From NCBI GenBank assembly GCA_963969365.1, contig OZ017750.1, positions 3,472,001-3,536,000 on the forward strand: a stretch of DNA of 64,000 nucleotides, read 5' to 3'. Shown here piece by piece: positions 11,743 through 48,608 of the stretch; position 1 is the stretch's first letter, and every line of letters begins with the position of its first letter. The notes below the pieces were generated by a model, which saw nothing but the letters and a program-made list of their open reading frames with translations, did not search any database and was not told where the DNA came from. This DNA comes from Asterochloris sp. CNOR1. Its lineage: Eukaryota > Chlorophyta > Trebouxiophyceae > Trebouxiales > Trebouxiaceae. The translations under genes and the position numbers were made by a program.

Positions 11743-16650
<4,908 letters not shown>

Positions 16651-17131
16651 AGTGTGCATCTGCGGACGGGTCCCCTTTATAAATGCAGAGCTCGCCTAGT
16701 GCCTTTAGCCAAGTCATGTGAATTGGACTTCTTTAGCAGCTTTTCCAAGGTTTCAATTGACGGAAGCGTGCATGTACAGACAAGCAAGCAATCTCAAGCC
16801 ATATGCAGCTGGATTATATGTCATTGCTCTTCATTTGTGTATGATATTGCAGCAAGCACTGACAAGCAAGGCATGAACGCAGATTGCAACCACAGACAGA
16901 CTCAGGGTGCAATTGAACCTCAAACACAGCAGACCTCACTTTCAGTAACTACAAGGCGAGGAACAAAGGAATGCTGGAAGTTTTGGTGGAGGGTCCTGAC
17001 ATTGCTCAGTTTGCAGGCATCTGCAGACACGTCATGTATTCTGGCAGGTTGGAACATCGCTGATCTGAGGTGCTATGCACCAAGCAAGGCTTTCAGGTGC
17101 TGGCCATTTTACAAAAAAGTAGCTTAGAACC
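16651..17131. other. Shared 3' intergenic region of ARG9 and lipase A
   Basis: The two genes converge on this 481 bp stretch. Its sequence recurs, inverted, at 48,609-49,110 and at about 51,576-52,081, which shows that it was carried along in the segmental duplication. Shared landmarks include CTCAGATCAG and GTCTGCAGATGCCTGCAA, read on the minus strand here and on the plus strand in the other two copies. Confidence 0.7.
17109..17113 (-). terminator. TGTAA polyadenylation signal of lipase A
   Basis: TGTAA on the minus strand 18 bases past the lipase A stop codon. TGTAA is the usual polyadenylation signal of green algae. Confidence 0.5.
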
Positions 17132-20100
17132 TCATGCCCGTGCCTCCATGACTGTGACTGGCAGGGGCTGCTCATAGGGCTGCTCTGCTGAGTGGTGGAA
17201 GGCGTGGGCCTTGGGGTCCACCGGCGACTGGGGCGACTTCGGCGACAGAGACTCGTCGTCGCTGCTGCCTTGCTCCTCGTCCACCTGCTGCTTCATGGCC
17301 AGGTTGGCCACTGGCATGCAGGCCAGGAAGTTTAGCAAGCTCCACTCGCTGCCGCCGGTCTTGGGCATGCGCACATTCTCTCGCTCGGAGTCCCTCTCTA
17401 TGTCTGCGCTGTCCCGCCCGAGGGGCCGCGCCTTGGCAGACCTGCCCCTGTCAGTGCTGCTGCTGCGCCGGTGCAGCTTGGGGTGCGGCAGAGGCATTGA
17501 CTCTAACCCTCCCGGAGCGTGAAGCCAGATCCCTGCAGCATGAGAGCAGGTGATGTCAGCGCAGACAGTTGGGCAGCAAAATTGATTGCAAAGGGCGCAT
17601 CACACAGAAGCATGCACCAGCTGCAATGCATGAGCCAGCATACACCAGGTATGCACCCAGACTCAGCCGCAGCCATCTGTGATAAGGGTCGACAGGCTGT
17701 GCCTGATGGTGGCGTGTGAATGCTGTTGGCTCACCGGCGTTGTATCGCGCCACTGTGTGGTCAGCAAGGTTGAAGCGCAGCTTGAAGTGCCAGGGACGGT
17801 GGCGCAGGTGTATCTGGTCCTTCAAGATGTGCATGCAGTTGTCCACATGCTTGTAGCTGCACAGCAGGGGAGGTGAAGCCTTTAGGGTTGTGGCCAGCGC
17901 AGTCACTTGTCAGCAGGTGCTAGTCAACAGGGCCAGACCATGGAGAGCACACCCAGCAGCTCTCTGGACAAGGCAGCAGCGCTTGCTGAGCATGCCTGGA
18001 GATGTCAGGCAAACATCAGCCCTGACATGCCCCGATTCAAAAGTCCAGACATTGTTGCACCAAGGAAAAGGAAAAGGCTCTCATTTGCATTGTGTCGGAG
18101 AACTGCAAGGTTGGATGTCCTGAGATGCAAAAGCCGATGCAGTCTTGCACTGAGGGACAAAGAGAGGCTGTCACTTGCTTTGTGATGAAGTGATGCGAAG
18201 CTGGAGGCACTCACTTGAACGCGGGAGGCAGGGTAGGCACAGGGTCTGCGCCCTGGATGATCCGGTAGCTGGTGCCCACCAGAGTGTGGAAAGCCTTCTT
18301 GAAGACTGAGTTGCCCACCCTGCAGGTCAAACGGCTGAGTGGTAACCGGTTGCATTCTGGAGCTGCATGAGGGAGGGCACAGGGCCGCGCGACCTTGAGA
18401 AGGGCAGGCAAGCAACAGTAGGCTTGACATGGCTCATGGCAACATGCTGAGGCTAAAGGGCTGTGAATTGCATGTGCTAGCACAGCTGTTGAGGCAGCTC
18501 AGGTCAATAGCCTGCCCCATGATTGGTTGAGCAGCAGTGATCCTGTACAGGAGGAGGCAGCCTGCCAGAAGCGGGGCGCAGTAGGCTGCCATCATGCAGC
18601 TGCCATGTGCGGCCAGAAAGAGAGCAGCACTTTACCTTGGGCTGCCAAAAGTGATGCACCTCACGTCTGCCTGGGGGTACTCCAGAGCAGCCCAGGCAGC
18701 ACCTGCACACAGGCACAACAGCTGTTGCCTTCCACAACCCTTGAGGTCCAGGCAGTGGTCTTGTAAAGCAGGGGGGCATGGCCCACTTTTGCTGGAGCAG
18801 CAGGCAACAAGCAGGTGCAGCTGTTGGCCACTGGGACAGCAGCTAGGAGGTTGGCGCAAGTCAGATTGCAGTCTGCGTGGCCTTGGAGAATGCTGGCTCA
18901 TGCTGCTTGCCATAGAGGGCACCCACCTAGTGTTGCCAACGCTCCACCAAGACTGTGCCCACAACAGAGCACGCGATTTGGGACCGCTCCGCCCGATAGC
19001 TCCTTCAGCACCTCTGACAGGCTGTTCTCTGGGTCAGCAAGGGAACTCACGGCTGCAAACTGCTGCAGGAAGCCTGCACACGCATCAACATGTCTTGAGC
19101 CTACTGGACAGGTGCAGCAGGAATCCTGCACACACATTGGATGGTCTCACTGGGTCCATACTCTGGCAGCTGCTGCAGAAATATCGGTGCCCTGACTGCT
19201 GAGCCTTGAGGCCAAGCAAGACGTTTGCACTTGACAAGCTGGCGCTGCAGCACCCACCTACGTGCGCCTTGACCCCTGGGAACAGGTCCTGCAGGTAGTC
19301 AATGTTGCGACGCATGATCTTCACGTCCTGAAGCCCATCCTGCGCCGTGTCTGTGCCCCGAAAAGCAAAGACAGCAGTGCCCTCTGGCAGCCACCCCACG
19401 TGGACCTGCAGGTGTGACAATGACATGATAATAAGCATCGACTGCACATTCAGTGGCGGGGCAGGCAGAGCACTGGAGCGACTTCCAGCTGTGGTGCTGT
19501 TGTGGCCATTGATGGCCGCAAACAGATCGATGGCGCCATCAGACTTAGCCCCATGCAGCAAGGTACCAACTGCTGCTTCACACATGCTGCTGCTGGCCTG
19601 ATGTGCAGCATGCTGCTGTCAGTGCTCATCAGCACAGGTGGCTGCTTGCTGCTGCAGCATGCTGTTACAAGGACTCCACAGCACAGATCGCTCCTTGCTG
19701 ATGGGCTGAGGTATGTCATGCTGCTGTCACTCAACCTCAGCATACTAATGCTTGCTGCTGAGCCACGGTGCAGCAAGCTGCTGTCAGTGTTCCTCAGCGC
19801 ACAGCAGACCTCATGCTGCTGGGCTATGTGCAGAGAAACATCACGGCTGCTCACATGGCAGTCCTTGTTCTTCTTGTCCACCACTAGGCGGCTGTTGGTG
19901 ATGCCCGTCCGCTCCCTGAAGGTGGCTTCATCCCTGTAGGCCGCCGCAGCGATGACCACTGCCTGGCTGAGCTTGCCCACTGCCAGAATCTGCAGGCGCC
20001 AGTAGAGGGGAAGGTGAGCAGCCTTGCAGGGGCTGCAGCTGTTTCAGTCATCACAGTTTGGCTAAGCTTGCTCTTTGCCGGGCACCAGCAGGGGAAGGGC

Positions 20101-23100
20101 AAGCGGCCCCTGAGTATACTGTTGCTTGGCTGAGCTAGCCCATTGCTGACATCTGCAGGCAGCTGGCAGGGTTCGGTGAGCTGCCTTCACTGCCTGCAAG
20201 TGCTCTTACATGTACCACCGAGCACGCCCACTCCCAGGATCTGCAGGCATCAGCAACATAGTTGCCACACCGCATGGTCGCTGTGGGCTGTAGCCATGCA
20301 CTTGCATGGCCAGAAACCACAGTGGCTGCCTGTTACCCTTACACGAGGTGCCAATCAGCAGATGCAGCCGCCCTGAGAGCCTTCCACCGATGGCAGGCAG
20401 AGCACCTGCTGCACGTGCTGTTTTTGTCCCAGGCAGAGGGCAGGCAGCGGACTCCAGGCAGCCACTCCAGGCCCACCTTGGCCATGGAGTCCAACTGGTT
20501 CAGATCCACCTCCAGGTCCTCCTTGTCCAGCATGGAGAAGGCGCGCTTCAGCCACACCGAACCGCCGCCCTCGCCATCGGATGGGCCGATGCCTGCAGGC
20601 GGGAGCAATCATGAGCACTCTGAAGCGTCCCCTGCTGTCTTGAAAGGGGCCACTTGGCCCCGCTCCCAGGCAGCCAGCATGTGTCAGTGCACAGTGCACC
20701 CTCATGCAACTATTCCTTCATCTCAGAATCCTCTGCACTGCCACCCTGAGCTTAGGCACAGCACCTAGCAGTGTTTGTGCAGGTGCTGGCAGAGTGCAGA
20801 CTGGCAGCAGACAGCAGGTGCAGCAGTCTGAAGGCTACTGATGCTTTGCAACACTATGGGCATGCATGGTGGTACTGGCAGCAGTGACACCGCTTGCTTC
20901 GCACAAGGGAGCACTCCATTCAACTCTGTGCCATCGGTGGCGTGGGAGCACATAGATAGGGGTGTGCTCTACGTGCATGGCAGGGGCAATGAAGGCGACC
21001 AACAATGTTTTGTTGGGATCTCAGAGTGCAGACGACTTGCTGCTGAGCATGGCAACGCCAAGCTGTAGCCACGCCCTGGCAGCAGAGCAAGGTGGCTGAC
21101 TGCCTTGGCCTGAGGTCAAGCTGTAGACTCCATGATGTCTTCAGCAGACTTGCTCCTGCACAAACGCGGCTTCGCTCACCTGCATTCATGCCGCCGGTGG
21201 CCTCGTCCACCACCCCGGCCACCACATTGCGGGCGGCGCTGTTGCCCAGGGCCCCCGAGCCCTGGGACTTGGTCTGCTGCAGCGTGGGGCGGTGGTCCCA
21301 CTGCTCCCCACCCTCAGCTGCTGGGCCGGGCCCCTCAGCGCCTGTTGCAGCTGCATCAACGGCAGCCTCACCCCCATTGGCCTCGCTCCCATTTGCCTCG
21401 CTCCCATTTGCCTTGCCTGCAGAAGAGGGCACATCAGAGCTGAATGTGTCACAGCCTGAGAGCTGAGGAGGGAGCAGCGAGAGCGGCGGCCATCCAAAGC
21501 TGCGGTGCTTCCAAGAAGCATGTGGCTGTCCTGAAATGGCGTCACAGAGCTCTGGACTGCGGACAGCCTGACCCACACTGCTATGCGTGCAGCATCACCT
21601 ATCACAAGAGATGCTTGAGCGGCCATAGTGTCCTGCAGCAGACGCCCACTGCTGCTGCCCAGTCTGTGCTGCAGTCCATGCAGCATGTGTCTGCAGTGAT
21701 GGAGGCCTGGACGGCTCAGTTGCAGCAGATGCCTGCTGCTGCTGCCCCTCCTGTGCTGCAGTCCATGCGACATGTGCATATTTCTTGAAAAGCTGAAATG
21801 GCCAATGTCACCTGCAGCACGCTGCTGCTTCTGCCGGAAGTACTCTGCCTTGATCTCGCGGAGGCGACTGGCCTCGGCCTCTGTGCCCAGCAGTGATGCG
21901 TGCAGGAAGGCCTGCCCCAGCTCTGCCATCTGCGCCTCACTGCACTTGGGGCTCTGCACACAGCCAAGGCCTCACGTCAGCACCCAACAGTGGATTGCAG
22001 GTTGTGCCACAAGCCTGGGCACCTGACGCTCAGCCTAGGGCCCGGCAAGCCTCTCTTGACGCTGCTTCACTGTCCAAGGGTACACCAGCTCCCACACCTG
22101 TCGGCTTGACGACCAACAGCCTGTCACTGCCCAATCCACTGCAAGTGGTTGAGTCGGTGTCAAACTGATGGCTTCCTGCCCAGAAGACAAGAAATGGCGG
22201 GAGCTGCACCTCAGAGCCACCAGCGACCACGGCATACCCGCCAAGATCTCGTCATGGTGGCCGAGCTGGTGCTGTGCAGCTCCATTCGATGCTGGCTGCA
22301 TGCCAAGCAGATGCGGAACAAGCGCAGTCGCACCTCAGCGCCATCCGCGACCTTGTCACTCCCCTCGGCTGCCTGCACCATCTGCTGCTCGTCCGACACC
22401 TGCTGGGGGGCGGCAGGCGCGGTCCACCCCATGCGCCTCTTCATGTCCTCCAAGATGGCCGCTGGGCTGGTCTTCTCCAGGGCCGCGCTGCCAGACTCAG
22501 CCGCCTGTCCTGGCTCAGAGGTTGAGGCCTCCTGTGACGATGCCTGCCTGCTGGGCACAGGTGGACTGGGCTCAGCATGCAATTTGAGCATGCACAACAG
22601 CAGCTTTGAAAGGATTGAAGGCACCAGGGTAGGTTGGGCCCAACATGCACTGAGGGAGTGATGAAAGCCAGCCTGACAGAGCAGGACATGGAGGGCCTGG
22701 ACTCAACGTCTGCTGCAGCATCAACAACAGCACAGTTGACAGCAACATGACGCAGGGGGACACGTCGCTGATCATGCACTGTGAGCAACCAGGTACCGCA
22801 CCCAGGTACACGCAGGCGCTGAGAACACGCCAAGGCATCGATGACGGAGAGCTGGACAGCATGGACCACACAGGTACATGCAGGGGCACATGGCTGAGCA
22901 AGGCACATACCCACTTGCAGCTCGCACAGTCAGGCAGGTGGCTGGTGCTGCGTGGCATAGCGTGCCCTCCCTGAGCAGGGCGCGCCACTCCTTCTGCACC
23001 TTCAATGCACGCTCCCAGTGGCTCACCTGGCGGCCAGCTTCCTCTGGCGCTCCTCATCCTCCAGCTGCTCCCGCACAGCCTGCACAGCACAGAGCATGGC

Positions 23101-26100
23101 AGTCTGAATGTGGATACATAGATCTGGAGGGGCAGCAATTGGCAGACTGTGCAGTCACACAGTCAGCGTCGGCAACTCGAAGCTGGATGAGCACAATGCA
23201 CTGTTACAAAGACTGCACCGCCCTTGAACGCAGCTGGTGCAGCGCCAGCTCCATACCAGGTCTAGGAGTGGAATGCATAGGCTCAGGGCGTGGCCACCTA
23301 CCAGTCACGTGACAAGCCAGTAGTCAGCAGCATGCTCCGCCTGATGCCTGCTGCTTTACCTGATAGAGGCCATTGTCTCGGATGTCTGGGTGATTGAGGT
23401 GCAGCTTGGGCATCACTGACACCTCTACTGCCATTGGCTGCTTGGAAGAGGCCGCCTTGTGCTGCTCGTTGTAGGCCTTGTCCAGGTGCTCTCCAAAGGA
23501 CGGGCCAAGCTCCATGTCATCGCCAGCTAGCTTCATATAGCACGTAGCAAAAGTGCTGTACAGGGAGCCTGCAGCCAGTAAGCAAGAGGAGGGTGCTGAG
23601 CAGGCCAGCATTGCCAGCGACCAGTTGCAGTGCAGAAGCAACTCCCAGCAATGACAGCAGCTGGGCAGCTGCGTGTGCGGCCAGACGCCTTCAGCAGACC
23701 CAAGGGGAGCCTTTAGACTCTAGAGGGCCTTGACACCAAAGCACCAGGTGCATCCTGGCCCCTCGGACCCACTGCGGCATCCCTCAGGTCATCAGCACAG
23801 CGCAGGAGGCATTGGCGTGCAAAAAGCAAATACCCACCTGGAGTGTCAGCTGCCAGCCGGAGGTCAGCTGTGCGCGTGACCACCAGCATCTCACAGGCCA
23901 CTGAAAAGGGGACGCTTCAACCTACTGCAGAGGTGTGCAACCCCTTGCGGGACACATCCTGCTCCACACTTTGCTGCCTTAAATCACTCCTTTGAGCAGC
24001 ATGCCCGATTTGCCTGAGTGTCCCTCTTCTGGGGACACGCGCGGCTCTACAATCCTCAGCTGACCTCGTTCAACCTGTGAGGGCCAGGCCCCACTGCCTG
24101 CTGGCCTAGCCGCTTCGCGCTCAAAGCTCACCTCCCAGAGCGCCTTTGCATGTGAAAGCCCCTTGTCAGGAGACACACACAGCTGCGCAAGTCTCTGCTG
24201 CCTGCCATCAATCCTGTAAGGCCCACCCTCCCCTGCATGTTGTCCTCAGCTAGCCCCGGTGGGGCCAGAGCTCACCTCCCAGAGCGCGGTCGCGCTCAAA
24301 GTGCCGCAGGCACACCGCGTGGACGGCCTCCGCATATCGCTCAAAAGCGTGGTCAGCGATGGTTGTGTTCAGCTTGGCAGAGGCAGGCCCCTCCCCTGGC
24401 TGCATCTCCCCGTCGCGGACATAAACGGCGCCATGGACGTGCCTCAGGAAGGCGCTGCGCACCGACATGCCGGCAGGGATTGAGTCTTTGCGATAGATCA
24501 CCCGGTAGCTCATTGCCACCAGCCACCTGCAGGGTTCAGGCAGAAGGGGTTGAAGTGATGGCCGCCACCAACCACCTGCAGGGATGAGGCGCGGGGGTGA
24601 AAGGGTGTGCAGTTGGGTTCTGGCTTCAAGGGCAAGCGTGTGGGCTTGTGATGCCAGCCACCTGCACCCTCAGGTCTGGACACTGTGAGAAGCTGGCTGT
24701 CACGGCATGTCCATGGGCTCAAAGTCACGAGTCACTTGTGCAAAGGGTGTTGGCAGTGAGCTGCTTGCTGTGAGGGAATGCCTCTGAGCTCATTGCCATC
24801 AGCTCCCAACACTGATAAGCCAAAAGAGGGTCGTTGTTCATGTTTTGGAATGATGGGTTTGAGGCCAAGGCAGTCAGATCTTGCATGCAGTGATGCAAGG
24901 ACCATTGTGTGGTCACACTAAGGCCATGGCCACCACTTATATGCAGTCTCACGTCAGGAGACTGACATGCTGCAGTCTGGGCCACATCCAGGCATGCATA
25001 ACTGCCCTGGCAGAGCGCCTGCAGACAGCGGGGTGCATGTGCAAACCCCTGGCTGTGGGTGCTGCATATGGGAGGACTGCAAGCAGCGCACCGAGGCACC
25101 TAGGAGAAGCTGCCGGAACCCTGCAGACTGTGCAAGACAAGGGACCTGAGTGGCTTGCCTGAAGACCTCTGTGAAGGCCGCATTGCCAACTTTGGGGCTG
25201 CCGAAGGTGATGCAGCGCACATCTGCGGTGGGACACTGCAGTGCCATCCACAGCGCTGTCACAGTGGCTGCGGCTGCCCCGCTGCAGTAGCCCGAGCAGA
25301 AGACCTTGCGGGGTGTCACGCCCCCTGCAGAGCAGTAGTGAGCACCTGCTTGTGGCCAACCAGCCACAGCACATGAATGCTGATGCAGGGCTGTGACGAT
25401 GCCCAAGACTAGCAGCTAGACCAGATCATCTGACTTGCCTCCACAGTATCAGCAACAGCTGCATATGACCAGCCACCATGAACCAAGTGGACCCTTGCGC
25501 CCCCACCTGACACAAACATAATGGCAGCAGACACAGCTTGCACAAGCAGCCTGTGCCAGAGCATAAGCAGCTGCGGCAGGCCAGACCGTGACGGCTCAGC
25601 TCTCGACCCTCAACCAAAGCACCAGGCTCACGGCAGTGCGGCCGGATGGCCTCCATTGGCTGGCTGGACATGTGCAGGTGAACATGTCCTCTCTTGCCTG
25701 AATAGCCTGTGCCAGAAGATGGACAGCTGCAGAGGCGAGCCCACAGAGCGAGCCACAGAGGGCTCTGACAGTGGCCCCCAGACACACAGGCGCGCCGCAA
25801 TAACACAGGCAGATGGAGTACAACAGCTGGCTGGACATGTGAAGGTAAATCGGCCGCACCTGTTGCAGCCTTGATGCAGTCGGCCAGGTTCCTGTGGTTC
25901 TCATCCCTCAAGCTGTCAAACATGTCCAGGAAGACCGTCACAATCTCAGCGCCCGGCCAGACGCCAGCCAGCCACTTGGGCTGCATCGTCTCTGTCTGCA
26001 CTTTCATGGACTCCTTGCAGGCACCCTGCAGCAGGGCACAGCATTGTTTCTGGTACCTGCTCACCCTTGTGCAGCTTGCTGATCAGTAGCTCCAGGAGGC

Positions 26101-27612
26101 CAGGCTGATGCAGAGAGAGCACGGCGGCAAAGCCAGACGCAGCTGTGCACGGCAGCGCCGGCAGACTCCTGTGCTTGCCATGCATAGATGCTGACATGCA
26201 CGTCGCACAGCTCTGGGATGTGAGTGAAGCGCTCTCTGCTGTGTGCAGAGGGCTGCTGTGCATGGCAGCGCTTGCCTACTGCACTGCCTGCCATGCAGGT
26301 CAGCATGCCGCACAGCTCTGTACTGATGGTGAGGCAGCAAACAGCAGAACTGTGCCGGAGATGCTTGCCTTCATCGCCATTGCCAGCATGCTTTTTTCCT
26401 TGAAGTAGGCCATGTGCAGCTCCATGCCGTGCTTCCCTGCAGGGCAGGCGCTGCGCATCGAGCAGGGCATCCACAGAGCACACATGCCCCAGTCTAGTTG
26501 CTGGCCATGTGCAGCTCCAGGCCATGCCTTTCAGCAATGAAGGCGCAGCACATCAGGCAGGGCAATTCCTTAGCCCTCCAGAACACGCAGGGGCGTTCCT
26601 CATGCACAGGTGCGCCATCCAACTGCTCGTCAACTCAAGGGCGATCAGCTTCATGCAAGCCAGGTGCTGCGCGAAAACAGAAATTCCCTGGACTGATCTG
26701 CGACTGACGTTTCATCCAAGCTCAGTGCGAAGCAAGTGCTGCACTTGTGTGCGCGGAGAGGAGCATGCGTGCCGGGCCATTGATGCAGTGCAGAAAGCAT
26801 CTGTTGTTGCTTGCTTGCTGGGTGACCTGGCAGCACAGGCATGTCACAAGAGGGGGGCCACCATGGCCTGCATCTCAACATAAATTGGCAGACACGGCAA
26901 GACACCGTCTGCATGAGCTCACCTTTCAACACCAAGGTGCGCCGCCCGAAGCCCTTCTGCCGCTCGATACACAGCTTCAAGGCTATCAGCGTCGGCTTGA
27001 TCTTGGCGAGCACTGGGGAAGCAAGCTGCTCTAGCTGGCCTGCAGTCCATCAGCGCAGCATTGTGCTGTGTTTCGGCAGCATGTTGGCAGCTTCCGCTGC
27101 CACAGTTGGTGCCTGTGGCCTGGTAACATCTGCCGGCAGCTGCCACCAGGCCGTGTTGCCATGGCAACCATGTTGAAGGCCTGGCGAGCCGGGTTTGCTC
27201 AAGGCCTTGCGAGCTGGGCTACACAGGAATCAAGAAGCTGAGACAGTAGGTGTGCCTCCATGGACCAGACGGCCTGATCTTCTGCGCACCAGCCGTGCAG
27301 TGGCTAGCATCTGAATGCACAGATTACACCCCACGTGCATCCTCACATGAGGGAATCCAGACTCACCAAGAGGTTCATCCTCTTGCACTGTTGAAAGCGC
27401 TGTGCTAGCCATGCCTGCTTGGCGTCAGTCTTCGGCGACAAGCACGATGAACAGAACTTCACACTGAACGAGGACTTTCCCCCTTCTTGGGTCCAAACAA
27501 GGGCGAGGCACGCTGGGCAAAGATGCCGCAAGTCTGCGTCAAGCTGACTCCGTTCTCGTCTGTGGAGTTTTTCTGTGCTAAGACTTTTCGGGGCTGACAT
27601 GAGGCAAGACAT
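17132..27612 (-). CDS. Two-domain class 3 lipase (copy A)
   Basis: Predicted alpha/beta hydrolase acting on acylglycerols or polar lipids. Exons (complement): 27612-27367, one unresolved small exon, 27039-26923, 26436-26369, 26104-26057, 26025-25860, 25324-25159, 24526-24276, 23900-23838, 23568-23360, 23079-23027, 22547-22334, 21953-21812, 21416-21180, 20592-20477, 19989-19855, 19405-19258, 19073-18927, 18702-18636, 18319-18215, 17856-17735, 17532-17132; about 1,075 aa. Exon 1 carries a CPAC...CSSC zinc-ribbon-like pair. Domain 1 (about 190-330) has GYCSGAAAA where a lipase has GHSLGGALA, then ITFGSPKVGNAAF, a KDSIP acid motif and ADHAFERY. Domain 2 (about 700-930) has CGHSLGGALA, ITFGSPRVGN, GADPVPTLPP and ADHTVARY, a complete Ser-Asp-His set. 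An Ala/Gly/Glu-rich linker joins them. The tail is acidic with SP motifs. Introns at 25158 and 26368 start with GC. No signal peptide was recognised. Confidence 0.85.
26486..26530 (-). repeat. Decayed duplicate of a lipase exon inside the intron (copy A)
   Basis: On the minus strand the stretch GGAGCTGCACATGGCC repeats the core of the nearby exon 26436-26369, which encodes MELHMAYFKEK. It sits just upstream in the preceding intron. The same relic is found in copy B at about 38,915-38,960, so it predates the segmental duplication. Confidence 0.55.
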
Positions 27613-27650: not shown

Positions 27651-29378
27651 ATGGACGAGAACACAGATCAGGGCAGCTGCTCAGATCAAGGTGTGCTGGT
27701 GTCGCGTCTGGGAACCGTTCATCTGCTGTGTGAAGTGCGCCCTTCAGCCAGTGATGAGGTAGCTCTTGCTCCTTCTACCTGCCGATGTGGTCACAGTGTT
27801 GCTGCACACAGCAAGGTCAGCCATGCCAACCTGTGTCTGTGCTGTTGCAGACTCTTGGCCTCCCCACAGACATATTCCAGGCTGTGCTTGCCAAGTCAGT
27901 GCAGCAGCGCGGCACTGCATCAAGCCTGAGGCTCAGCAGCCGCAGCTTGGCACATGGGTGTGGAGCAGCATTGGTGACAGGCAAGGTGGCGCGCCAAGCA
28001 CAGATTCTTCCTCCTTCCCAGAGATTCCCAGGATGCTCTGCATACCCCCAAGCTCCGGGTTGATCTGCTGTCCCCTTGAACTGCAGGCACCTTCCACCTC
28101 AGACCACCGCACCTGCATGGCCCGCACGGAGAGCTTCAGTGCTGGCTATGGCAAGTGGGCATCCTACAGCGCGCCTTTCCCAACAGCACCCTTAGAATGG
28201 ACAACGTGGTTCGGACAGCAGATGCGGCAAGCATCCATCAACTGCTCAACTGCACTGAGCTCAGGGACGTCACTATCTGCCCCACATCAAAGCCAGTCAG
28301 GCGTGCCAGGCAGTGGCAAGCACTTGCCGCTCTGGACAGGCTACATGGCGGTCGCCTGCAGCTCCGGGTGTCGGCACACGCCTTCCGGATGCTGGCGGCA
28401 GAGCCTGCGCTGGCCGCTCACGTCTCACAGGCGACACTGGCATGGGGCGCAGGTGCCGGCAGCAGCTTGGCGGACCAGGTCAGCAGCTTGAGCAGCCTCA
28501 CCAAGCTGACGCTGCGCAACCGGGACTCACCGCTGGGGGCAGCAGGCATGCTGGACGCCCTGCGGCAGCTGTCAGCGCTGCAGTCCCTGCACTGCCTGGC
28601 CAGTGCCATGCGGATGCTGCTGGTCAATTCAGTCCCCAGCAGCTGGCCACTGCTGACAACACTGCAGCTCAGAGACTTCATATGCGAGCCTCAACCACTG
28701 AACTGGTCCCTTGTGGAGCAGCAGTGCCCCCAGCTGCAGGAACTGACCATGTACGAAGCTGTCCCACTGTGCCTGACCGCCCTGACCAGCCTGACCTGCC
28801 ATCACTGGGAGCCTCGAGACACAGACAGCTTGCAGTGCTCTCGGCTGGGCCACCTCCATGTGCTGTGGAGTTTAGATCTCAAAGTGTTGCCTAGCACACT
28901 AACAAGCCTCTCCCTGCACCATGGTGGTAGACACCCCTTGCACCACATCCCAGATCAGCACCTGAGCAGCCAGCAGTGCCTGGTGCACATTAGTTTTACG
29001 TCTGTGTTGTGGGACCTTTCAGACATTCCAGGGCTGATTCCAGCCATTCAGCGCCCTGCTCTATCCCCTTCTGTGACATCTGTTCAGCTCTGCATTCGCC
29101 CACAAGCCCTCATCCTGCCAGACATGAATGGCAGCATGGCGAGGCAACACTTTCATCATCTTGTTGCATGGTTTCCACACCTGCAGCGCTTACATATTCA
29201 CTTGCCCAGCGGGCACGTATCAGGGGAGCTTTTGATATCAGCTGAATGGCTCCCAGCACACTGCAGACTTGTCGTCACTCACAACCTGACATGCCCGGTC
29301 CGTGTTGTGAAGTATCCCTCTGGCTGCTTGTCGCTTCCCCTGGCGTCACGCCCTGTTGATGAATGGAGAAGCTATTAG
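27651..29378 (+). CDS. F-box/LRR-like protein (copy A)
   Basis: Three exons: 27651-27758, 27851-27980, 28087-29378; 509 aa. Residues about 37-78 (LGLPTDIFQAVLAKSV, then SLRLSSRSLAHGC) resemble an F-box. The remainder is leucine-rich with irregular repeats such as LTKLTLRNRDS and LRQLSALQSLHCL. F-box/LRR proteins usually act as substrate receptors of SCF ubiquitin ligases; that role is inferred only. Intron 2 starts with GC (27981-27982, GTGACAG|GCAAGG); a GT site five bases on would put exon 3 in the wrong frame. Copies B and C lie at 36,260-37,996 and 49,126-50,875. Only copy A keeps a single uninterrupted frame, so it is probably the working gene. Confidence 0.75.
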
Positions 29379-38046: not shown

Positions 38047-38914
38047 ATGTCAGTCCCGAAAAGTCTTGGCACAAAAGTTCTCTGTCAGACCGAGAAGTGA
38101 GCCAGCTTGACGCAGACTGCTGATTGTCAAGCACGCCTCGCTCCAGATTGGACCCCGAGAAGGGGAAAGCAAGCCTGCGATCCACGCTGCTTGAAGTAGA
38201 AGACTAAAGCCAAGCAGGATGGCTAGCACAGCACTTTCTGCAGTGCAGGAAGATGAACCTCTTGGTGGGTCTTGATTCCCTCATGAGGGGATGTATGTGG
38301 AGTCCAACAATGTTGCTGTGTCAACATGACCTGTCGTCAGCTGCTGGACGTTGCCAGGCAATTAAAGCTGGCATGATACTGCTGAACCACACCACAATGC
38401 TGTGTTCATGGGCTGCAGGCCAGCTGGAGCAGCTTGCTTCCCCAGTGCTCGCCAAGACCAAGCCAGCGCTGATAGCCCTAAAGCTATGTATAACACGGCA
38501 GAAGGGCTTCGGGCGGCGCACCATGGTGTTGAAAGGTGTGCTCGTGCGGAAGGAATCTTGCGTGCCTGCACCACTCTGTTGAGATGCTGGCCACGGTGGG
38601 CCCCTGCTGTGACATGCATGTGCTGCCAGGTCACCCAGCAAGCAAACAACAACACATCCGTTGCACCCAGGGCCCGGCTGCGTGATCCTCTCTGCACAAT
38701 ATGCAGCATCTGCACTGAGCTTGAACAGGACATCAATGGCCGATGAGCACTGAAGTGGAGTCCTGTTTGTGCGCAGTGCCTGGCTTGCAGAAAGCTGTCC
38801 GCTCTGGGCCTGAACAGGAGTTGCATGGCATACCTGTGCATGAGGGACGCCCCTGCCAGTTGTTCTGGACGGCTAAGAAAGTCCCTTCCCTGATGTGCTG
38901 CGCGTGCACTGCAG

Positions 38915-38960
38915 GGAAACATAGCCTAGAGCTGCACATGGCCAGCGATCAATTTGGGGC
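38915..38960 (+). repeat. Decayed duplicate of a lipase exon inside the intron (copy B)
   Basis: After a CTGCAG-like acceptor the intron reads GAGCTGCACATGGCCAGC. This repeats the core of the exon at 39011-39078 (MELHMAYFKEK) and matches the relic of copy A at 26,486-26,530. Confidence 0.55.
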
Positions 38961-40217
38961 GTGTGTGCTTGTTGAACTCCCTGCTCGATGCGCAGCTCCA
39001 TGTCCTGCAGGGAAGCACGGCATGGAGCTGCACATGGCCTACTTCAAGGAGAAGAGCATGCTGGCAATGGCGATGAAGGCAAGCGCCTCCAGCACAGTGC
39101 TGGCTGCCCTCTGATGGAGGCACGATTTGCTTCACCATCAGCACAGAGCTGTGCAACATGCTGGCCTGCATGGCAGGCAGTGCCATAGGCAAGCGTCGGC
39201 ACTTCCAGCAGCCCTATGGTTGTAATAGAGTCTGCTTCTTGTCCAGCACAGCTGTGCTGACATTGGTGTGCATTTATGAAAGATGGCACTCCACTCTCAC
39301 CTTCAGGTGCTGCCCTCTGATCACAGCAGAGGATGCTTCACACACATCACAGAGCTGTGTGATTGCTTGTCAGCATCTTATGCATGGCAGGCACAGGAGT
39401 CTGCCGGCGCTGCCATGCACAGCTGTGTCTGCTCTGCCGGCGTGCCCCCACTGCACCAGCCTGGCCTCCTGTTGATCAGCAAGCAGCGCTACCCAGGGGT
39501 GAGCAGGCTGCTGGAATAATGCTGTGGCACTGCTGCAGGGTGGCGGCAGGGAGGCAATGAAAGCGCACGCGGAGACGGTGCAGCCCAAGTGGCTGGCTGG
39601 CGTCTGGCCGGGCGCTGAGGTCGTGCCGGTCTTCCTTGACATGTTTGACAGCTTGAGGGATGAGAACCACCGGAACCTGGCGGACTGCATCAAGGCTGCG
39701 ACAGGTGCGGCTGATTCACCTAAACATGTCCAGCCAGCGAGTGAAGGCCATCTGCCTGTGCTGCCGCAGCGCACCTGTGTGTCTGAGGGCCACTGGCAGG
39801 GCCCTCACTGGCTTGCCTGCCGCAGCTGCCTAGCTTCTGGCACGGGTTCCTTATGCAAGATGCACCTCTTGCTGTGTGGCAAAATCATGTTTGTGCAAGG
39901 TGGGGCCGCAAGGGTCTACTTGGTCCACAGTGGCTGGTCTCCTGCAGCTGTTGCTGATACTGTGGTGGCAATCAAGGCGGTCTGGTCTAGCTGTCACTCT
40001 TTGGGCGTTGTCACAGCCCTGCATCAGCATTTAGGTGCTGTGGCTGGTTGGCCACCCGCAGGTGCTCACTACTGCTCTGCAGGGGGCGTGACACCCCGCA
40101 AGGTCTTCAATGTGGGCTACTGCGGCGGGGGAGCAGCAGCCACAGTGACAGCACTGTGGATGGCACTGCAGTGCCCCACCGCAGATGTGCGCTGCGTCAC
40201 CTTTGGCAGCCCCAAAG

Positions 40218-40426
40218 TCGGCAACGCGGCCTTCACAGAGGTCTTCAGGCAAGCCTCCCAGGTCACATGTCTTGCACAGTCAGCAGGGTCCCTGCAGCTC
40301 CTCATGGGTGCCTCTGTGCGCAGATCAGCAATGCGGCCTTCACAGGATCTACAGGCAAGGTCTCCTGGTCACTTGTCTCACACAGTCTGCAGGGTTCCTT
40401 AAGCTCCTCCTGGGTGCTGCAGTGCG
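40218..40426 (+). repeat. Tandem duplication of ~103 bp across an exon-intron junction, copy B only
   Basis: Two similar blocks, 40218-40320 and 40324-40426, each start with an AAYGCGGCCTTCACAG-like exon end and run through the intron start to a TGTGCG or AGTGCG end. The first block contains the working exon end (40248, followed by GCAAGC). The second is intronic. Copy A has only one block at this place. Confidence 0.65.
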
Positions 40427-41824
40427 CTGCTTGCAGTCCTCCCATATGCAGCACCCACAGCCAGGGATTTGCACATGCACCCCGCTGTCTGCAGGCGCTG
40501 TGCCAGGGCAATTTCACATGCCTGGATGTGGCCCAGACTGCAGCATGTAGTCTTCTGACCTGCATGTGTCTGGTGGCTGTGGCCTTGTTGAGACCATCTG
40601 ACAATGACCCTGCATCACTGCTTCCAAAACCTGACTGCATCAACCTTGCAGCCATCACGTCAAAGCGGTCACCTACCCTCTCATGCCCTCATGATTGCTG
40701 GGAGCTGACAGCAGTAAGCTCAGCAGCATGCCCTCACAGCCAGCACCTCACTGCCAACCCCCTCCAATAAGTGACTGGTGACCGTGAGCCCACAGGCATG
40801 GCCTCACAGCTAGGATTTCACAGTGTCCTGACTGCAAGTGACTGGTATTTACGAGCCCTCATGCTTGCCCGTACAGCCTGAAAACTCATTGCAGACCCCC
40901 CAACCACACACTTCCTCTGCCCTCACCCCTGCAGGTGATTTGCTGCATCGAGCTCACGGCCATCCCCTCACCACCTCTTCTGCCTGAACCGTGCAGGTGG
41001 CTGGTGGGCGTGAGCTACCGGGTGATCTACCGCAAAGACTCGATTCCCGCCGGCGTGTCAGTGCGCAGCGCCTTTCTGAAACACGTCCATGGCGCCGTTT
41101 ACATCCGCGATGGGGAGATGCAGGCAGGGGAGGGGCCTGCCTCTGCCAAGCTGAACACCACCATTGCTGACCACGCTTTTGAGCGGTACGCAGAGGCCTT
41201 CCACGCAGTGTGCCTCCGGCACTTTGAGCGCGACCGCGCTCTGGGAGGTGAGCACTGGGCCCACCGGGGCTGGGTGAGGGCAATAACAGGCAGGGGAAGG
41301 TGGTTCCCAGGGGGTTTGATGGTGGCCAGCAGAGACTTGCGGGGCTGTGTGTGTGTCCCCTGGAGAGAGGCTTTCATGTGCAAACGCGCTCTGGGAGGTG
41401 AGCTCTGGGCGTAAAGGGAGCGGGCACGCAGGCACTCAGGACTGGCTGACTGAGGGTGGCAGAGCCTTGTGGAGCTGTGCATGTCTCCACAAGAGGGCAT
41501 TCAGGCTGGACCGCGCTCTGACAGATCAGCACTGGGTTGAAGGGGCCTCCTTGGGGCAGCAGGCAATGGACAGCGCCCCTCACAAGGTCGATACAGGGCA
41601 GCAGATGTCTGTAGGGCAGGGGCGTCATGCAAGTGTCTTCTGAGCAGGACCTGGGAGATATGAGCAGTCCAGACACTCTAAGGATGTTTGATTAGACAAC
41701 TGATCTGAGAGCAGCAGCCTGGGAGCGCGGGAGCTGCACAACTTTGCGGCAGGATGAAGCGCAAACTGTCCAGTGGCCTGTGAGGTGCTTACACAGAGCT
41801 GCCCTCTGGCTGGCAGCCGGACAC

Positions 41825-41876
41825 TTCAAGTTGCCCTTGAAGGGCAAGGATTCAAGTTGCCCTTGAAGGGCAAGGA
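41825..41876. repeat. Two perfect 26-bp palindromic repeats at a lost splice donor
   Basis: Two identical copies, 41825-41850 and 41851-41876. Each contains TTGCCCTTGAAGGGCAA, an 8-bp inverted repeat around one base. The first copy begins exactly where the donor of the lipase-B exon starting at 41774 should be. Copy A has a normal CCAG|GTGGGT at the matching place (23838). Confidence 0.8.
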
Positions 41877-44800
41877 TGCACCCTTGCCAGCGTGATGGCC
41901 CTTGTATTTAGGTGTCCCAGGGGTCTGCGGAAGACCTCTAGCCGTGCACTCAGCTGCCCAGCTGCCGTCAATGCAGTGGATCTGCACATCACTGCTCGCC
42001 ATTGCTGCCAGTGCTGGCAGTGGTGGTAAGTCCAGCGCTGTTCACTGCCTGCAGGCGCCCTGTACAGCAGCTTTGCTGCGTGCTACTTGAAGATGGCTGG
42101 CGATGATATGGAACTTGGCCCGTCATTCCAGAAGCATGTCGACAAGGCCTACATGGGTCAGCAGAAGGCAGCAACTTCGCAACGGGCAGCAGATGCAGGC
42201 GCGATCCCCAAGCTGCATCTCAATGAGCCAGAGATTCAAGACAACGCCCTCTATCAGGTAAAGCAGCTTGCATCGGGGTGCATGCTGCTGATCCCTGGCT
42301 TGTCGTGTGACTAGCAGGTGGCCATGCTTTGAGGCTGTGCATCTACTCCTAGGCCTCAGAGGGCGCTGGCCCTGCATCAGCCGATTTCAGGGGCTGTACA
42401 GTCCTTGTAAAGGTGCACTGTGTCAATTCATTCTGGGTTGCCAATGCCAATTGTGTAACTGCAAAGTCTGCCAGTCGACATATTCCGTCTCCAGCTCTGT
42501 GCATCTACATTCACACTGCCATGCTCTGTGCTGTGCAGGCTGTGCAGGACCAGCTGGAAGATGAGGATCGCCAGAGGAAACTGGCAGCAAGGTGAGCAAC
42601 TGGCAGTGTGCGCCAAAGGTGCAACAAGAATAGTGTGCCCTGCTCAGGGAGGGCACGCCATGCCACGCAGCTCCCACCACCTGCCTGCCTGTGCAAGCTG
42701 CAAGTGGGTCTGCAGCCTTGCTCAACCATCCGCCCCTGCATGTACTTGTGTGGTTACTGTCACTGATGCCTCAGTGTGTTGGCAGCGCCTGCTTGCTGAT
42801 TGCTCATAGCGCATGATCTGTGACGTGTCCACATTACGTCATGCCGCTGTCAACTTTGCTGTCAATGATGCTGCAGCAGACATCAGGCCCAGTCCCTCTA
42901 TATCCTGCTGTGTCAGGCTGACTCTCATCGATCTCTTAGTGCATATTGGGCCCAACCTACCCTGGTGCATTCAATGCTTTCTCAAAGCCGCCGTCGTGCC
43001 TGCATGACCGCATGCTGAGCCCAGTGCACCTGTGCTGTACAGGCAGGCGTCGTCGCGGGAGGCTACGACCTCTGAGTCAGTACAGGCAGCTGAGTCAGGC
43101 AGCCCAGCCCTGGGAAAACCCAGCCCAGCGGCCATGTTGGCTGACATGAAGAGGCGCATGGGGTGGACACAGCCTGTTGCACCCCAGCAGGTGTCAGACG
43201 AGCAGCAGATGGTGCAGGCAGCCGAGGGGAACGACAAAGTTGCTGATGGTTCTGAGGTGCAATTGCGTTGATTCCGCATGTTTTGGCTAGGCAAGAAGCC
43301 GGCATTGGACACACTGCATCATTTTGGCCGCCATAAGGAGCTATGGGCAGCCAACTGGGTTATGCTAGGGCAGCTGACAGCTCTGAGGTGCGGCTGTGGC
43401 TGCTTGTTGTGTGCCAGGCAGCAAGCCAGAGCTGCATCACTTTTACCCAGACTTAGCCAGAATGAGATGGTTGGGGCAATGACAGGCTGCAGGATGTCAA
43501 TCTGACGGGTGTGGGAGCTGGTGTACCCTTCGGCAAGGACACAGCGGTGAGAGGCCTGCCAGGTCCGGAGGCAGGGCCAGCTCCGTGGCGCAGCTTAGGT
43601 GCCCAGCCTTGTGGCACAACCTGAAGTCGACTGTTGGATGCTGACATGAGGCCTTGACTGTGCGCAGAGCCCCGAGTGCCATGGGGAGCGGATGGCCCAG
43701 ATTGGGCAGGCTTTCCTGCACGCATCACTGCTGGGCACAGAGGCTGAGGCCACTCGCCTCCGCGAGATCAAGGCTGAGGTCTTCCGGCAGCAGCAACAGC
43801 GGCGGGCCTTTGCTGGAGGTGAGATCAGCAAATTCAGCACCTGCAGGAATAGACACATGTTGCGTGGACTGCAACACAGTTTTGAGCAGCAGCACTTGGC
43901 GTCTGCTGCCGGAGTTTCTGCATGGCCACTCAAGCAGCTGTTGACAGGGGCAATGCAGCACAGACTGCAGCCTTGGTTGAGCAGCTCCCAATTAAGGGGC
44001 CTGTGATGCCTTTCCAGGCATCACGACCACATGCTTGTTGGAAACAGCACAGCTTGGCCAGCTCCATGCCCTGGCTGTGCACCACTTAGCGGTAAGGCTG
44101 CAACACAGTCAATTCTGATTCTCTTGCTTTGCAGTTGAGGCAGCTGGGCCTGAGGCAAATGGGCGCGAGGCAAATGGGGTTGCAGCTGCCGTTGATGCAG
44201 CTCCAGCAGGCGTGAATGGGGCCGGCCAAGCAGCTGAGGGTGGTGAGCAGTGGGGCCACCGCCCCACGCTGCAGCAGACCAAGTCCCAGGGCTCGGGGGC
44301 CCTGGGCAACAGCGCCGCCCGCCGCGTGGTGGCTGGGGTGGTGGACGAGGCCACCGGCGGCATGAACGCAGGTAAGCGAAGCTGCCTCACATGCAGGAGC
44401 TAATCTGCTGGAAGATTGTTGTGGAGTATACAGCTGAAACACAGGCCATGGCAGTCAGCCACCTGCCTCTGCTGCCAGGGCGTGGCTGCAGCTTGGCACT
44501 GCATGATGGCAGCAAGCAGGCAGCAGTTCATGACCTTAGCGTATCATTGGTACCATTGCCTTCATCGTCCTTGGCACGCACGAATACCACACCCCTATCC
44601 ATGTGCTCCCACAGCACAAGCTGTGGCACAGCCGGAAACGAGTGCTCCTTGTCCAAAGCAAGTGGTGTCACTGCTGCCAGTACCACCATGCGTGCCCTTG
44701 CTGTTGCTATTCACCGGGAGCCTCTGGACTGCCTGCACCTGCTGTCTGCAGCTCATCTGCAGCTCATCTGCACTCTGCCCGTTGCTGCACAGACACTGCT

Positions 44801-47800
44801 GGGTGCTGTGCCCAAGCCCATGCTGGCAGTGCAGAGGATTCTCAGGTGGAGGAGCAGCCGCATGGGGTTGCACTTTGCACTGACGGGTTTTGGGCCGGGG
44901 AGCGGGGCCAAACACTCCTGCACGAGAGCAGGGGATGCTTCAGAGCGCGTTCAAGCCTGGTCCAGTGCTGCAGGCATCGGCCCATCTGACGGCGAGGGTG
45001 GCGGTTCGGTGTGGCTAAAGCGCGCCTTCTCCATGCTGGACAAAGAGGACCTGGAGGTGGATCTGAGCAAATTGGACTCCATAGCCAAGGTGGGCCTGGG
45101 GTGGATGACAGGGCTCCGTGCATGCACTCTGCCCCTGACTTGCTCCATGCAGCTCCGTCTGGCCAGGGTGGACAACCACCTGGGTGCATGACAGGCTGTT
45201 GCTCTGCTGCCTTACTCTGCCTGGAAGTAGTGACAGCATGTGCAGCAGGTGCTCCGCCTGCTTCGGTGGAAGGCCCTCAGCGCAGGCGCATCTGCCGGTT
45301 GGCACCTCATACAAAGCTGTTGGGCAGCTGCTGTGGTACCTGGCCATGCAAGTGCACAGCTGCAGCCCCCAGCAACCATGCAGTGCGGCCACATCCTGCA
45401 GCTGCCTGCAGATACTGGCAGTGGGCATGCTTGGTGGTACATGCAAGAATAGTGGCAGCCCCTGCAAGGCTGCTCACCTCCCCCCTGCTGGCGCCTGCAG
45501 ATTCTGGCAGTGGGCAAGCTCAGCCAGGCAGTCGTCATTGCTGCGGCGGCCTACAGGGATGAGCCCACCTTCAGGGAGCGGACGGGCATCATCAACAGCC
45601 GCCTGGTGGTGAACAAGAAGAACAAGGACTGCCACGTGAGCAGCAGAAATGTTTCTCTGCACAGCAACCCAACACCACGGGGTCTGCCATGCAGCAAGGG
45701 GTCTGCTATGCAGTAGAACATTGACAGCAGCTTGCTGCACCGTGGCTCAGCAGCAAGCATGAGTATGCTGAGGACGGAGGACAGCAGCATGCTATACTGT
45801 GGCCCCTGAACAAGGAGGAATCTGTGCTGAGGGGTACTGCTAACAGTATGCTGCACCTTGGCCCAACAGCTGGGAGGCAGAGCACTTAGTGACGTTTGTG
45901 CTGAGGAGCGCGGACAGTAGCATGCAGCACCTCAGCCCAGCAGCAGCAGGTGTGAGGCAGCACACTTGGCACCCTGCTGCAGGGGGCCATGCACTGGCAA
46001 TGTCTCATGGTGTCATGGATCTGGTCGCGGCCATCAAGGGCCACACTAGCACCACAGATGGAGGTCGCTCCAGTGCTCTGCCTGCCCCACACCTGGTTGT
46101 GCACTTAAAGCCTATAGAAGTATTGTTGCCACACCTGCAGGTCCACGTGGGGTGGCTGCCAGAGGGCACGGCCGTCTTTGCCTTTCGGGGCACAGACACG
46201 GCGCAGGATGGGCTGCAGGATGTGAAGATCATGCGCCGCAACATCGACTACCTGCAAGACCTGTTCCCAGGGGTCAAGGCGCACGTAGGTGGGTGCTGCC
46301 AGCCTGTTCAGCACACCTGTCCTGCTTGGTGTCAAGCCTCAGTCGTGGAGGTAAAGGCACGTCTGGGTCTGTGCTGCAGCGTCAACCTCTGACGCACATG
46401 CGTTGCACAGCAGCCTCAGGGGTAAAGGCTCATGTGCATGATTGCAGCAGCACTGACCTGCAGCATCTGTCAGGATGGGGATGTCTGAGATAGTTTCAAA
46501 AGTACACCTTTGCACAGCACTTATGTGTTCTCCACGTGCTTGGCTTTGCTAGACACGCAATAATAACAGCATTATACACGAGATGGCTACCAGCTCATGG
46601 ATGGCACTACGCTTACTACCTTTGATTTTTTACATAGAGTGTCTGCAAGGCTCCATGCAGCAGCTGTCAGCATTGGGATGTTCGAGACATTTCTATGTGC
46701 GAGCATGTTTCTGCAGTGGCTATTAGGATTCGGATGATAAAGAAATGTTCATGCATGTGCAGGGTTCCTGCAACAGTTTGCAGCCGTGAATTCCCTTGCT
46801 GACCCAGAGCATAGCCTGTCAGGGGTGCTGAAGGAGCTATCGGGTGGGGCCATCCCAAATCGCGTGCTCTGTTGCGGGCACAGCCTGGGTGGAGCACTGG
46901 CAACATTAGGTGGGTGGGCCCTCCATGGCAAGCAGTCTGGGGCAGCATGCTTCTCTTGAGGCCATGCAGACTGCCTCCTGCCTGGCGCCAAGCTCTTCTG
47001 CTGCTGTTTGCTGGCCAACAGATCATTGGCCAACAGCTGCACCTGCTCAATGTCTGCTGTTCCAGCCTATCAGAAATGCCCCTGCTTGACTGTACCACCG
47101 CTGAACTTCAGAACTGGACACTGCAACAGCCATTGTGCCTGTGTGCAGGTGCTGCCTGGGCTGCTCTGGAGTACCCTCAGGCAGACGTGAGGTGCATCAC
47201 TTTTGGCAGCCCCAGGTGAACTGCTGCTCTCTTTCCGGCCGCGCATGGCAGCGGCATGATGGCAGCCTTCTGCGCCCCGCTTCTGGCAGGCTGCCTCTTC
47301 CTGTACAGGATCACTGCTGCTCAACCAATTATAGGGCAGGTTATCGACCTGAGCCGCCTCAACAGTTGTGCCAGCACATGCAGCTCGCAGCCGTTCAGCC
47401 TCAGCATGTTGCCATGAGCCATGTCAAGCCCACTGTCGCTTGCCTGCCCTTCTCTTTTTGCTGCGCGGCCCTGTGCCCTCACTCATGCAGCTCCAGACTG
47501 CAAATGGTAACCACTCACCCCCTTGACCTGCAGGGTGGGCAACTCAGTCTTCAAGAAGGCTTTCCACACTTTGGTGGGCACCAGCTACCGGATCATCCAG
47601 GGCGCAGACCCTGTGCCCACCCTGCCTCCCGCGTTCAAGTGAGTGTCTTTGACCTCGCAGTTTCCCGACACAATGCAAGTGAGAGCCATTCCTTTCCTTG
47701 GTGCAAAAATGTCTGGACATTTGCTTTCCAGGACATATCCTGGCTGATATTTGCCTGACGTCTCCAGGCATAGTGGGCAAGCGCTGCTGCCCGTTCAGAG

Positions 47801-48608
47801 AGCTGCTGGGTGTGCTGTCAGTAGGCTGGCCCTGTTCACTAGCACCTGCCGGCAAACCAATGAGCTCGCCAGATCCTAAGAAAGGCTTCACCTCCCCTGC
47901 TGTGCAGCTACAAGCATGTGGACAACTGCATGCACATCCTGAAGGACCAAATACACCTGCGCCACCGTCCCTGGCACTTCAAGCTGCGCTTCAACCTTGC
48001 TGACCACATGGTAGCGCGATACAATGCCGGTGCGCCAACAGCAGTCACTCGCCACCACTGGGCACAGCCTGTTGGTCTACGACACAAATGATTGTGGCAG
48101 GGCATGGGTGCATGCGCAATTTTGCTGGCTCATGCATTGCAGCTGGTGCATGAATCTATGGGTTACACCCACCGAAACAAGTTGCTGCGCAACTGCCTGG
48201 ATTCCTCCTGCTGCAGGGATCTGGCTTCACGCTCCAGGAGGGTTGGACTCAATGCCCCTGCCGCACCCCAAGCTGCACCGCAGCAGTGACACGGGCAGGA
48301 CTGGCAAGGCGCAACCCCTCGGGCGGGACAGCGCAGACATACAGAGTACATCCCGCCGGGAGAGATGCCGCATGCCCAAGACCGGCGGCAGCGAGTGGAG
48401 GCTGCTAAATCTACTGGCCTGCATGCCGGTGGCCAACCTGGCCATGCAGCAGCAGGTGGACGAGGAGCAGGGCAGCAGCGACGATGACTCTGTGTCGCCC
48501 AAGTCGCCCCAGTCGCTGGCGGACCCCAAGGCCCACACCTTCCACCACTCTGCAGAGCAGCCCTATGAACAGCTCCCGCCAGTCACAGTGGTGGAGACGC
48601 GGGCGTGA

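Follow-up and report, generated by a model that had tools for sequence, protein, structure and literature searches.

A 64,000-nucleotide stretch of contig OZ017750.1 (positions 3,472,001 to 3,536,000; hereafter the window) carries an inverted pair of long genes, A and B, in which two class 3 lipase domains (Pfam Lipase_3) follow one another in the order domain 1, linker, domain 2. Domain 1 has cysteine in place of serine at the nucleophile position. We narrowly favour the reading that domain 1 is a working Cys-His-Asp acyl-enzyme within a tandem class 3 lipase family, over one in which it is a pseudoenzyme, and give it close to an even chance. The fuller proposal, that domain 1 is a cysteine lipase or acyltransferase of natural origin, its working triad kept through long divergence, fused to a serine lipase of the same family so that each polypeptide would hold two acyl-enzyme chemistries, is put forward more tentatively, at somewhat less than an even chance. 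Domain 2 is, to judge from its motifs, an ordinary serine lipase with a Ser-Asp-His triad.

Both halves of the gene show class 3 lipase ancestry. In a Pfam scan of domain 1 of genes A, B, D and F (C to G are further tandem genes, described below) and domain 2 of A (Lipase_3 gathering cut-off 22 bits), domain 1 scored 59.9 bits in A (E = 3e-16), 54 bits in B (E = 2e-14), 56.8 bits in D and 58.2 bits in F, and domain 2 of A scored 96.8 bits (E = 1e-27). When solved structures were searched with a domain 1 profile (an alignment of A–D and F; the wider domain 1 alignment holds A–F), the fungal lipase 1dt3 was retrieved at E = 9e-7, in a match that ends before the His. The domain 1 Cys aligns with 1dt3 residue 146, within GHSLGG, and the Asp with residue 201, which we take to be the catalytic Ser and Asp of that enzyme. 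Profile–profile alignment of domain 1 with domain 2 extends over 237 columns (E = 2e-37) and brings the domain 1 Cys opposite the domain 2 Ser, with the Asp and the His of the two domains likewise matched. A FGSP-VGN block and the Asp and His motifs are common to these domains and class 3 lipases; the His motif reads ADHAFERY in domain 1 of both A and B, and ADHTVARY and ADHMVARY in domain 2 of A and B, respectively. An earlier annotation made from the letters of this stretch (the sequence-only reading) had quoted GYCSG, GYCGG, GHSLGG, ADHAFERY and ADHTVARY, all of which are present in the window. Its claims that the two domains correspond step by step, that Cys occupies the nucleophile position and that the Asp and His motifs remain in domain 1 of A and B are borne out by these alignments. 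Alignment to solved lipases supports a putative alpha/beta hydrolase fold with a nucleophile elbow for domain 1. AlphaFold modelling of the A/B elbow exon pair as a 54-residue fragment returned a model too poor to interpret, with helices only (predicted local distance difference test score 52.6, predicted template modelling score 0.28). Domain 1 differs from known class 3 lipases (PF01764, fungal TLL type) in its Cys for Ser and its divergent RG[ST] motif, and the proteins differ in carrying two such domains.

Searching the genome with each domain recovered five more tandem genes (C–G), with domain order and strand constant; F and G are incompletely modelled. Domain 1 lacks the GxSxG serine of Lipase_3 in all seven genes, with Cys in A–F and Gly (codon GGC) in G. 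The elbow boxes read GYCSG in A, GYCGG in B, C and D, GYCGA in E, GFCIG in F and GVGTG in G, and Tyr or Phe stands throughout A–F in place of the His that precedes the nucleophile (consensus G[YF]Cx[GA]). The Cys codon is TGC in A, B, E and F and TGT in C and D. Domain 2 has Ser at this position in every gene, encoded by AGY in A, B and F and by TCG in C, D and E, codons that no single silent change connects. A Pfam search of the genome gave at least 38 Lipase_3 matches, three of which stop short of the elbow; the 35 elbows read among the matches listed comprise 28 Ser, 6 Cys and 1 Gly, and with the elbows of domain 2 from A, B, C, D and F, which were absent from that listing, the totals become 33 Ser, 6 Cys and 1 Gly. 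Among the Lipase_3 elbows read, Cys is restricted to domain 1 of the tandem genes. Prokaryotic relatives have Ser in all 80 elbows read (of 169 confirmed relatives), and 14 pattern matches on viral contigs yielded no relatives.

The Asp and His of domain 1 are invariant in all six Cys copies. With 63 of 219 ungapped domain 1 columns invariant, the chance that three randomly chosen columns are all invariant is about 0.023, as a rough estimate. In the partly modelled domain 1 of G, Asn stands at the Asp site (NSTS for DSIP) and the exon read contains no His; this domain looks like a dead one, unlike the Cys copies. Conservation of the Cys, which the sequence-only reading had described for A and B, extends to six of seven copies, and G departs from it with Gly, on a very long branch and with Asp and His apparently lost.

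That reading had also taken Cys in both A and B as an argument against random decay. The agreement of A and B alone is weak evidence, since they are a young duplicate, with about 0.28–0.30 synonymous substitutions per synonymous site (dS); random decay is excluded far better by genes C–F, which keep the triad, with D and F at dS >1 from A. Domain 1 dS is 1.2–1.5 for A or B against D and 1.3 for A or D against F (values for distant pairs are high and come from the NG86 method only), and because dS exceeds 1 between distant copies the common Cys, Asp and His are old. The ratio of nonsynonymous to synonymous rates (dN/dS) for domain 1 by NG86 is 0.18 for A/B, 0.26 for D/E, 0.35 for C/D and 0.31 for C/E; YN00 gives 0.17–0.30, so that over both methods the ranges are 0.17–0.18 for A/B, 0.20–0.26 for D/E and 0.27–0.35 for C/D and C/E. 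The corresponding NG86 values for domain 2 are 0.08, 0.07, 0.20 and 0.25. Domain 1 is under purifying selection and is less constrained than domain 2. Because Cys, Asp and His persist at dS >1, the A/B domain exons lack indels and domain 1 has a low dN/dS, the Ser-to-Cys switch is, as we read these comparisons, fixed in the lineage and not a product of decay.

A tree of domains 1 and 2 of A–F with nine prokaryotic sequences (ten loci were tried, of which L093 had no usable frame) places all domain 1 sequences in one group (support 100/99) and all domain 2 sequences in another (88/87), the two being jointly separate from the prokaryotes (87/88). In both domain trees A and B are sisters and C, D and E cluster together. 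Gene F falls outside A–E in the domain 1 tree (96/96) and has an open position in the domain 2 tree; the order within C–E also differs, with C joined to D for domain 2 (93/88) and D to E for domain 1 (91/87). When included, domain 1 of G formed a branch of length 4.25 on few columns, with no reliable placement. Most simply, the tandem would have arisen once, before the genes split, with the order inside C–E unsettled.

Indirect evidence suggests that each tandem is one gene encoding both domains. The order domain 1–domain 2 on a single strand recurs in all seven genes at four places in the genome. Splice junctions e7–e8 and e12–e13 are clean in A and B, the latter also in D and E, and linker exons e11 and e12 recur in D and E. 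Within the domain exons of A and B, 1529 of 1655 columns are identical (92.4%) and none is a gap, as compared with 5602 of 7165 columns (78.2%) and 1849 gap columns in the introns and linker; since the domain exons are gap-free and more identical, we consider them coding and under selection. All 12 spliced domains of A–F are free of stop codons. These features argue against the view that domain 1 is a copy in decay or was annotated in error, the locus being two separate genes or else a pseudogene, as does the agreement of the two domain trees on A/B and C–E, even if their inner order differs and only domain 1 resolves F. That view would fit the long introns, the weak linker junctions (e8–e9 and the final acceptor) and TGTAA, a polyadenylation signal of green algae, which occurs at least once between the domains of A, B, D and E; C has no inter-domain TGTAA, and overall we consider this explanation very improbable. 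The linker of A matched no Pfam family at E up to 1.

How domain 1 might work can be sketched as follows. A Lipase_3 domain would have been duplicated inside one gene, founding the tandem family; domain 2 would have remained a canonical Ser-Asp-His lipase, and the nucleophile of domain 1 would have changed from Ser to Cys (GHSxG to G[YF]Cx[GA]) prior to the divergence of A–F, to be kept thereafter together with Asp and His. In domain 1 the Asp would orient the His, which would turn the elbow Cys into a thiolate. The thiolate could be acylated by an ester or thioester, giving a thioester intermediate; water or an acceptor would then receive the acyl group, much as in dienelactone hydrolase or polyhydroxyalkanoate (PHA) synthase. 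Domain 1 may thus be a thioesterase or acyltransferase next to the hydrolysing domain 2, perhaps acting on the same lipids. The data directly show the sequences, the gene structures, the alignments, conservation and selection; for domain 1 we infer the fold, thiolate activation, acyl-enzyme, substrate and any cooperation with domain 2. An acyl-enzyme is favoured because all three triad residues are invariant in the six Cys copies, and because the sole copy without a nucleophile, G, appears to be without Asp and His too.

Several points weigh against a working domain 1. The oxyanion-hole motif of class 3 lipases, RG[ST], is absent from domain 1 of A–E: where domain 2 has FRGT, domain 1 has MKGA (A), MKGG (B), VKMS (C) or FKTS (D and E). 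The lid/oxyanion exon is not resolved in domain 1 of F. The oxyanion motif of domain 2 is RGT in A–E and AGT in F. For the two young pairs, A/B and D/E, domain 1 has a dN/dS roughly two to four times that of domain 2. Plant EDS1-family proteins retain lipase-like triads without needing catalysis, and all copies described here come from a single genome. Finally, a plain exchange of Ser for Cys inactivates most serine hydrolases, according to the available part of a study on an engineered cysteine lipase (PMC6642262).

Domain 1 could instead be a pseudoenzyme, that is, a retained lipase fold that serves domain 2 as a regulatory or binding unit (a fatty acid or membrane sensor, or a dimer interface) and in which the Cys is non-catalytic. 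This would accord with its degenerate RGT motif and lid, with protein evolution faster than that of domain 2, with a paralogue (G) that resembles a plain dead domain with Gly, and with the presence of the plant lipase-like proteins PAD4, EDS1 and SAG101 among the solved matches of domain 1 (E = 2e-6 to 0.07). However, lost catalysis would not predict an invariant Cys, Asp and His in six copies, some at dS >1, and the only Cys-less copy seems to have lost all three residues. We regard the pseudoenzyme as a serious alternative, although a less probable one than a working acyl-enzyme. The plant proteins also differ in architecture, in that they have no second lipase domain. EDS1, PAD4 and SAG101 carry a C-terminal EP domain, to which neither the scanned domains nor the linker gave a Pfam match; the C-terminal tail lay outside that scan.

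A third explanation makes domain 1 a redox or lipidation switch, whose His/Asp-activated Cys would be reversibly oxidised, glutathionylated or S-acylated and would so control domain 2. A Cys activated by His and Asp is prone to oxidation, and a second Cys lies four residues upstream of the nucleophile in five of the six Cys-bearing domains (A, C, D, E and F). The same residue is Asn in B, however, and a Cys also occupies the equivalent place in domain 2 of A–F (CCGHS), so that it is non-specific; nor is there a sequence hint of redox partners. In line with such oxidation, a crystal of the engineered lipase showed its catalytic Cys as sulfinic acid, as described in the accessible text (PMC6642262). 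We consider such a switch improbable.

If domain 1 works as a cysteine acyl-enzyme, it would act like dienelactone hydrolase or PHA synthase and belong to neither family. Dienelactone hydrolase (PF01738, DLH) comes second among the Pfam matches for each of the four domain 1 sequences scanned (A, B, D and F), below threshold (11.3–14.2 bits against a cut-off of 21; E = 0.03–0.26). It is an alpha/beta hydrolase with a Cys-Asp-His triad, which domain 1 shares by its alignment to lipases, and with an elbow box that the domain 1 box comes to resemble through the change of His to Tyr or Phe before the Cys. Because domain 1 is Lipase_3 by sequence, the likeness to DLH is best explained by convergence at the elbow. 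PHA synthases carry a G-x-C-x-G box, and at E up to 1 domain 1 of A, B, D and F gave no Pfam match to that family. Going by the available portion of an alpha/beta hydrolase survey, PHA synthases and PhaZ depolymerases use the same Cys-Asp-His chemistry as the proposed domain 1 enzyme; that portion lists dienelactone hydrolase, PhaZ and PHA synthase as carriers of Cys triads and gives no class 3 lipase with such a triad (PMC11878206). Within this fold, thioesterases, N-acyltransferases and dienelactone hydrolases are known with Ser and with Cys as nucleophile, as stated in the part of the source at hand (PMC9825947).

The accessible sections of a 2019 paper report a lipase that was evolved to work with Cys (PMC6642262). 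The laboratory-evolved CALB S105C variants described there likewise place a Cys-His-Asp triad in a lipase; they are engineered and derive from a different lipase, whereas the switch described here is natural, fixed in six paralogues and seen at the sequence level. In its accessible text the same paper ends by asking whether natural cysteine lipases exist. Among the matches listed in the open-licence literature, we found no report of a natural cysteine class 3 lipase, and 14 lipases of Chlorella vulgaris are described as GXSXG in the available part of another study (PMC7910983). The family offers a built-in experiment, in which a single genome holds Cys, Gly and Ser domains that share an ancestor. 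An active domain 1 would reveal the changes (His to Tyr or Phe before the nucleophile, remodelled oxyanion motif and lid) that make Cys work in a lipase; an inactive one would be a clear case of a pseudoenzyme that retains its triad.

The window lies on contig C5 of a 56.4 Mb genome in 21 contigs and has a G+C content of 55–61% (in 2-kb steps). Intron-rich genes are a green-algal trait, and the gene structures are consistent with algal kinship. The A/B segment is an inverted duplicate with 80% identity across 11771 aligned bases, introns counted. Exons of A and B were marked by codon-substitution scoring of their alignment, and splice junctions were picked by consensus and by recurrence in other paralogues, many recurring in C, D and E (Table 1). 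The sequence-only reading had given the lipase gene as 17132–27612; its end near 17132 holds, with TGTAA on the sense strand at 17113, and the first supportable coding exon starts at 27412 and not at 27612.

Table 1. Coordinates of the tandem lipase genes, their exons and neighbouring features (window positions unless a contig is named).
Feature	Position	Strand	Basis or remark
Gene A, tandem Lipase_3 (domain 1, linker, domain 2)	17132..27412	-	Exon chain; Lipase_3 in both halves
Gene B, inverted paralogue of A, same layout	38219..48608 (end approximate)	+	Comparison with A
Genes C, D, E	C6, 3.178-3.210 Mb		Domain search of genome
Gene F	C1, 4.015-4.023 Mb		Domain search of genome
Gene G	C6, 2.607-2.611 Mb		Domain search of genome
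A exon 1, MASTALSTVQEDEPL	27367..27412	-	Kept in B (38219-38264); junction TTG/GTGAGT to CTGCAG/GCC
A domain 1, N-terminal part	26923..27039	-	Counterpart in C, D, E
A domain 1, oxyanion strand exon (e3), ELHMAYFKEKSMLAMAMK	26369..26436	-	Aligns with domain 2 VHVGWLPEGTAVFAFR; GC-AG intron next
A domain 1, lid region and subsequent helix (GACKES..QPKWLAGVW..CIKAAT)	25860..26025	-	Splicing; domain 1/domain 2 alignment
A domain 1, nucleophile elbow exon, GYCSG..ADVRCITFGSPKVGNAAFTEVF	25159..25324	-	Alignment to 1dt3 and domain 2
A domain 1 elbow motif GYCSG	25292-25278	-	
A domain 1 Cys codon TGC, nucleophile position	25284..25286	-	Sequence read
A domain 1, Asp/His exon (YRKDSIP..IADHAFERY)	24276..24526	-	Asp codon 24484-24486; His codon 24349-24351
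A linker exons	about 23568-23360, 23103-23027, 22547-22334, 21929-21812, 21320-21180	-	A/B junctions, some weak
A domain 2 exons	20592-20477, 19989-19855, 19405-19258, 19073-18927, 18702-18636, 18319-18215, 17856-17735	-	Canonical GHSLGG, DPVP, ADH
A domain 2 elbow motif GHSLGG	18960-18943	-	
A domain 2 Ser codon	18952-18954	-	Sequence read
A last exon, C-terminal tail (RMPKTGG...)	17132..17403	-	Kept in B; weak acceptor GCGCAG/ACA common to both
B domain 1, nucleophile elbow exon, GYCGGG	40083..40248	+	Cys codon 40121-40123
B domain 1 elbow motif GYCGG	40115-40129	+	
B domain 1, Asp/His exon	40997..41247	+	Asp codon 41037-41039; His codon 41172-41174
B domain 2 exons	44974-45089, 45501-45635, 46141-46288, 46763-46909, 47149-47215, 47534-47638, 47908-48029	+	Ser codon 46882-46884
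B domain 2 elbow motif GHSLGG	46876-46893	+	
GC-donor introns of domain 1, A	26369/26025, 25159/24526	-	
GC-donor introns of domain 1, B	39078/39539, 40248/40997	+	
Third, incomplete copy of duplicated segment	49141-51954	+	Flank and lipase exon 1, then directly last exon
Long open frame beside lipase copies	28080-29378	+	Further copies at about 36.3 kb and 49.1 kb
Open frame	15301-15633	+	

Two exon assignments were rejected in building the domain 1 model. Exon e5 (25516-25415, FVSGGGARVHLVHGGWS) was considered as the HxGF segment; it has no counterpart in C, D or E among the matches listed, and e4 joins the elbow exon cleanly in A–E. Exon e4 itself was dropped as the oxyanion strand in favour of e3. 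Two domain 1 introns of A and B have GC donors (AAG/GCAAGC and CAG/GCAAGC), at positions where C, D and E have GT.

Both young pairs, A/B in the window and D/E on contig C6 (3.1896-3.2101 Mb), are divergent head-to-head inverted duplicates. Gene G has several N-x-S/T sites in domain 1 and a Pro/Ser-rich inter-domain stretch, SPRPSPSPSPSPPP, as in secreted glycoproteins. An Rfam scan of the window gave no match at the gathering score. The third copy of the duplicated segment lacks the body of the gene, and its frames are interrupted. A long open frame, which presumably contains leucine-rich-repeat-like segments, stands beside each lipase copy and was co-duplicated with it, and a shorter frame beyond the end of gene A resembles, we assume, an aminotransferase.

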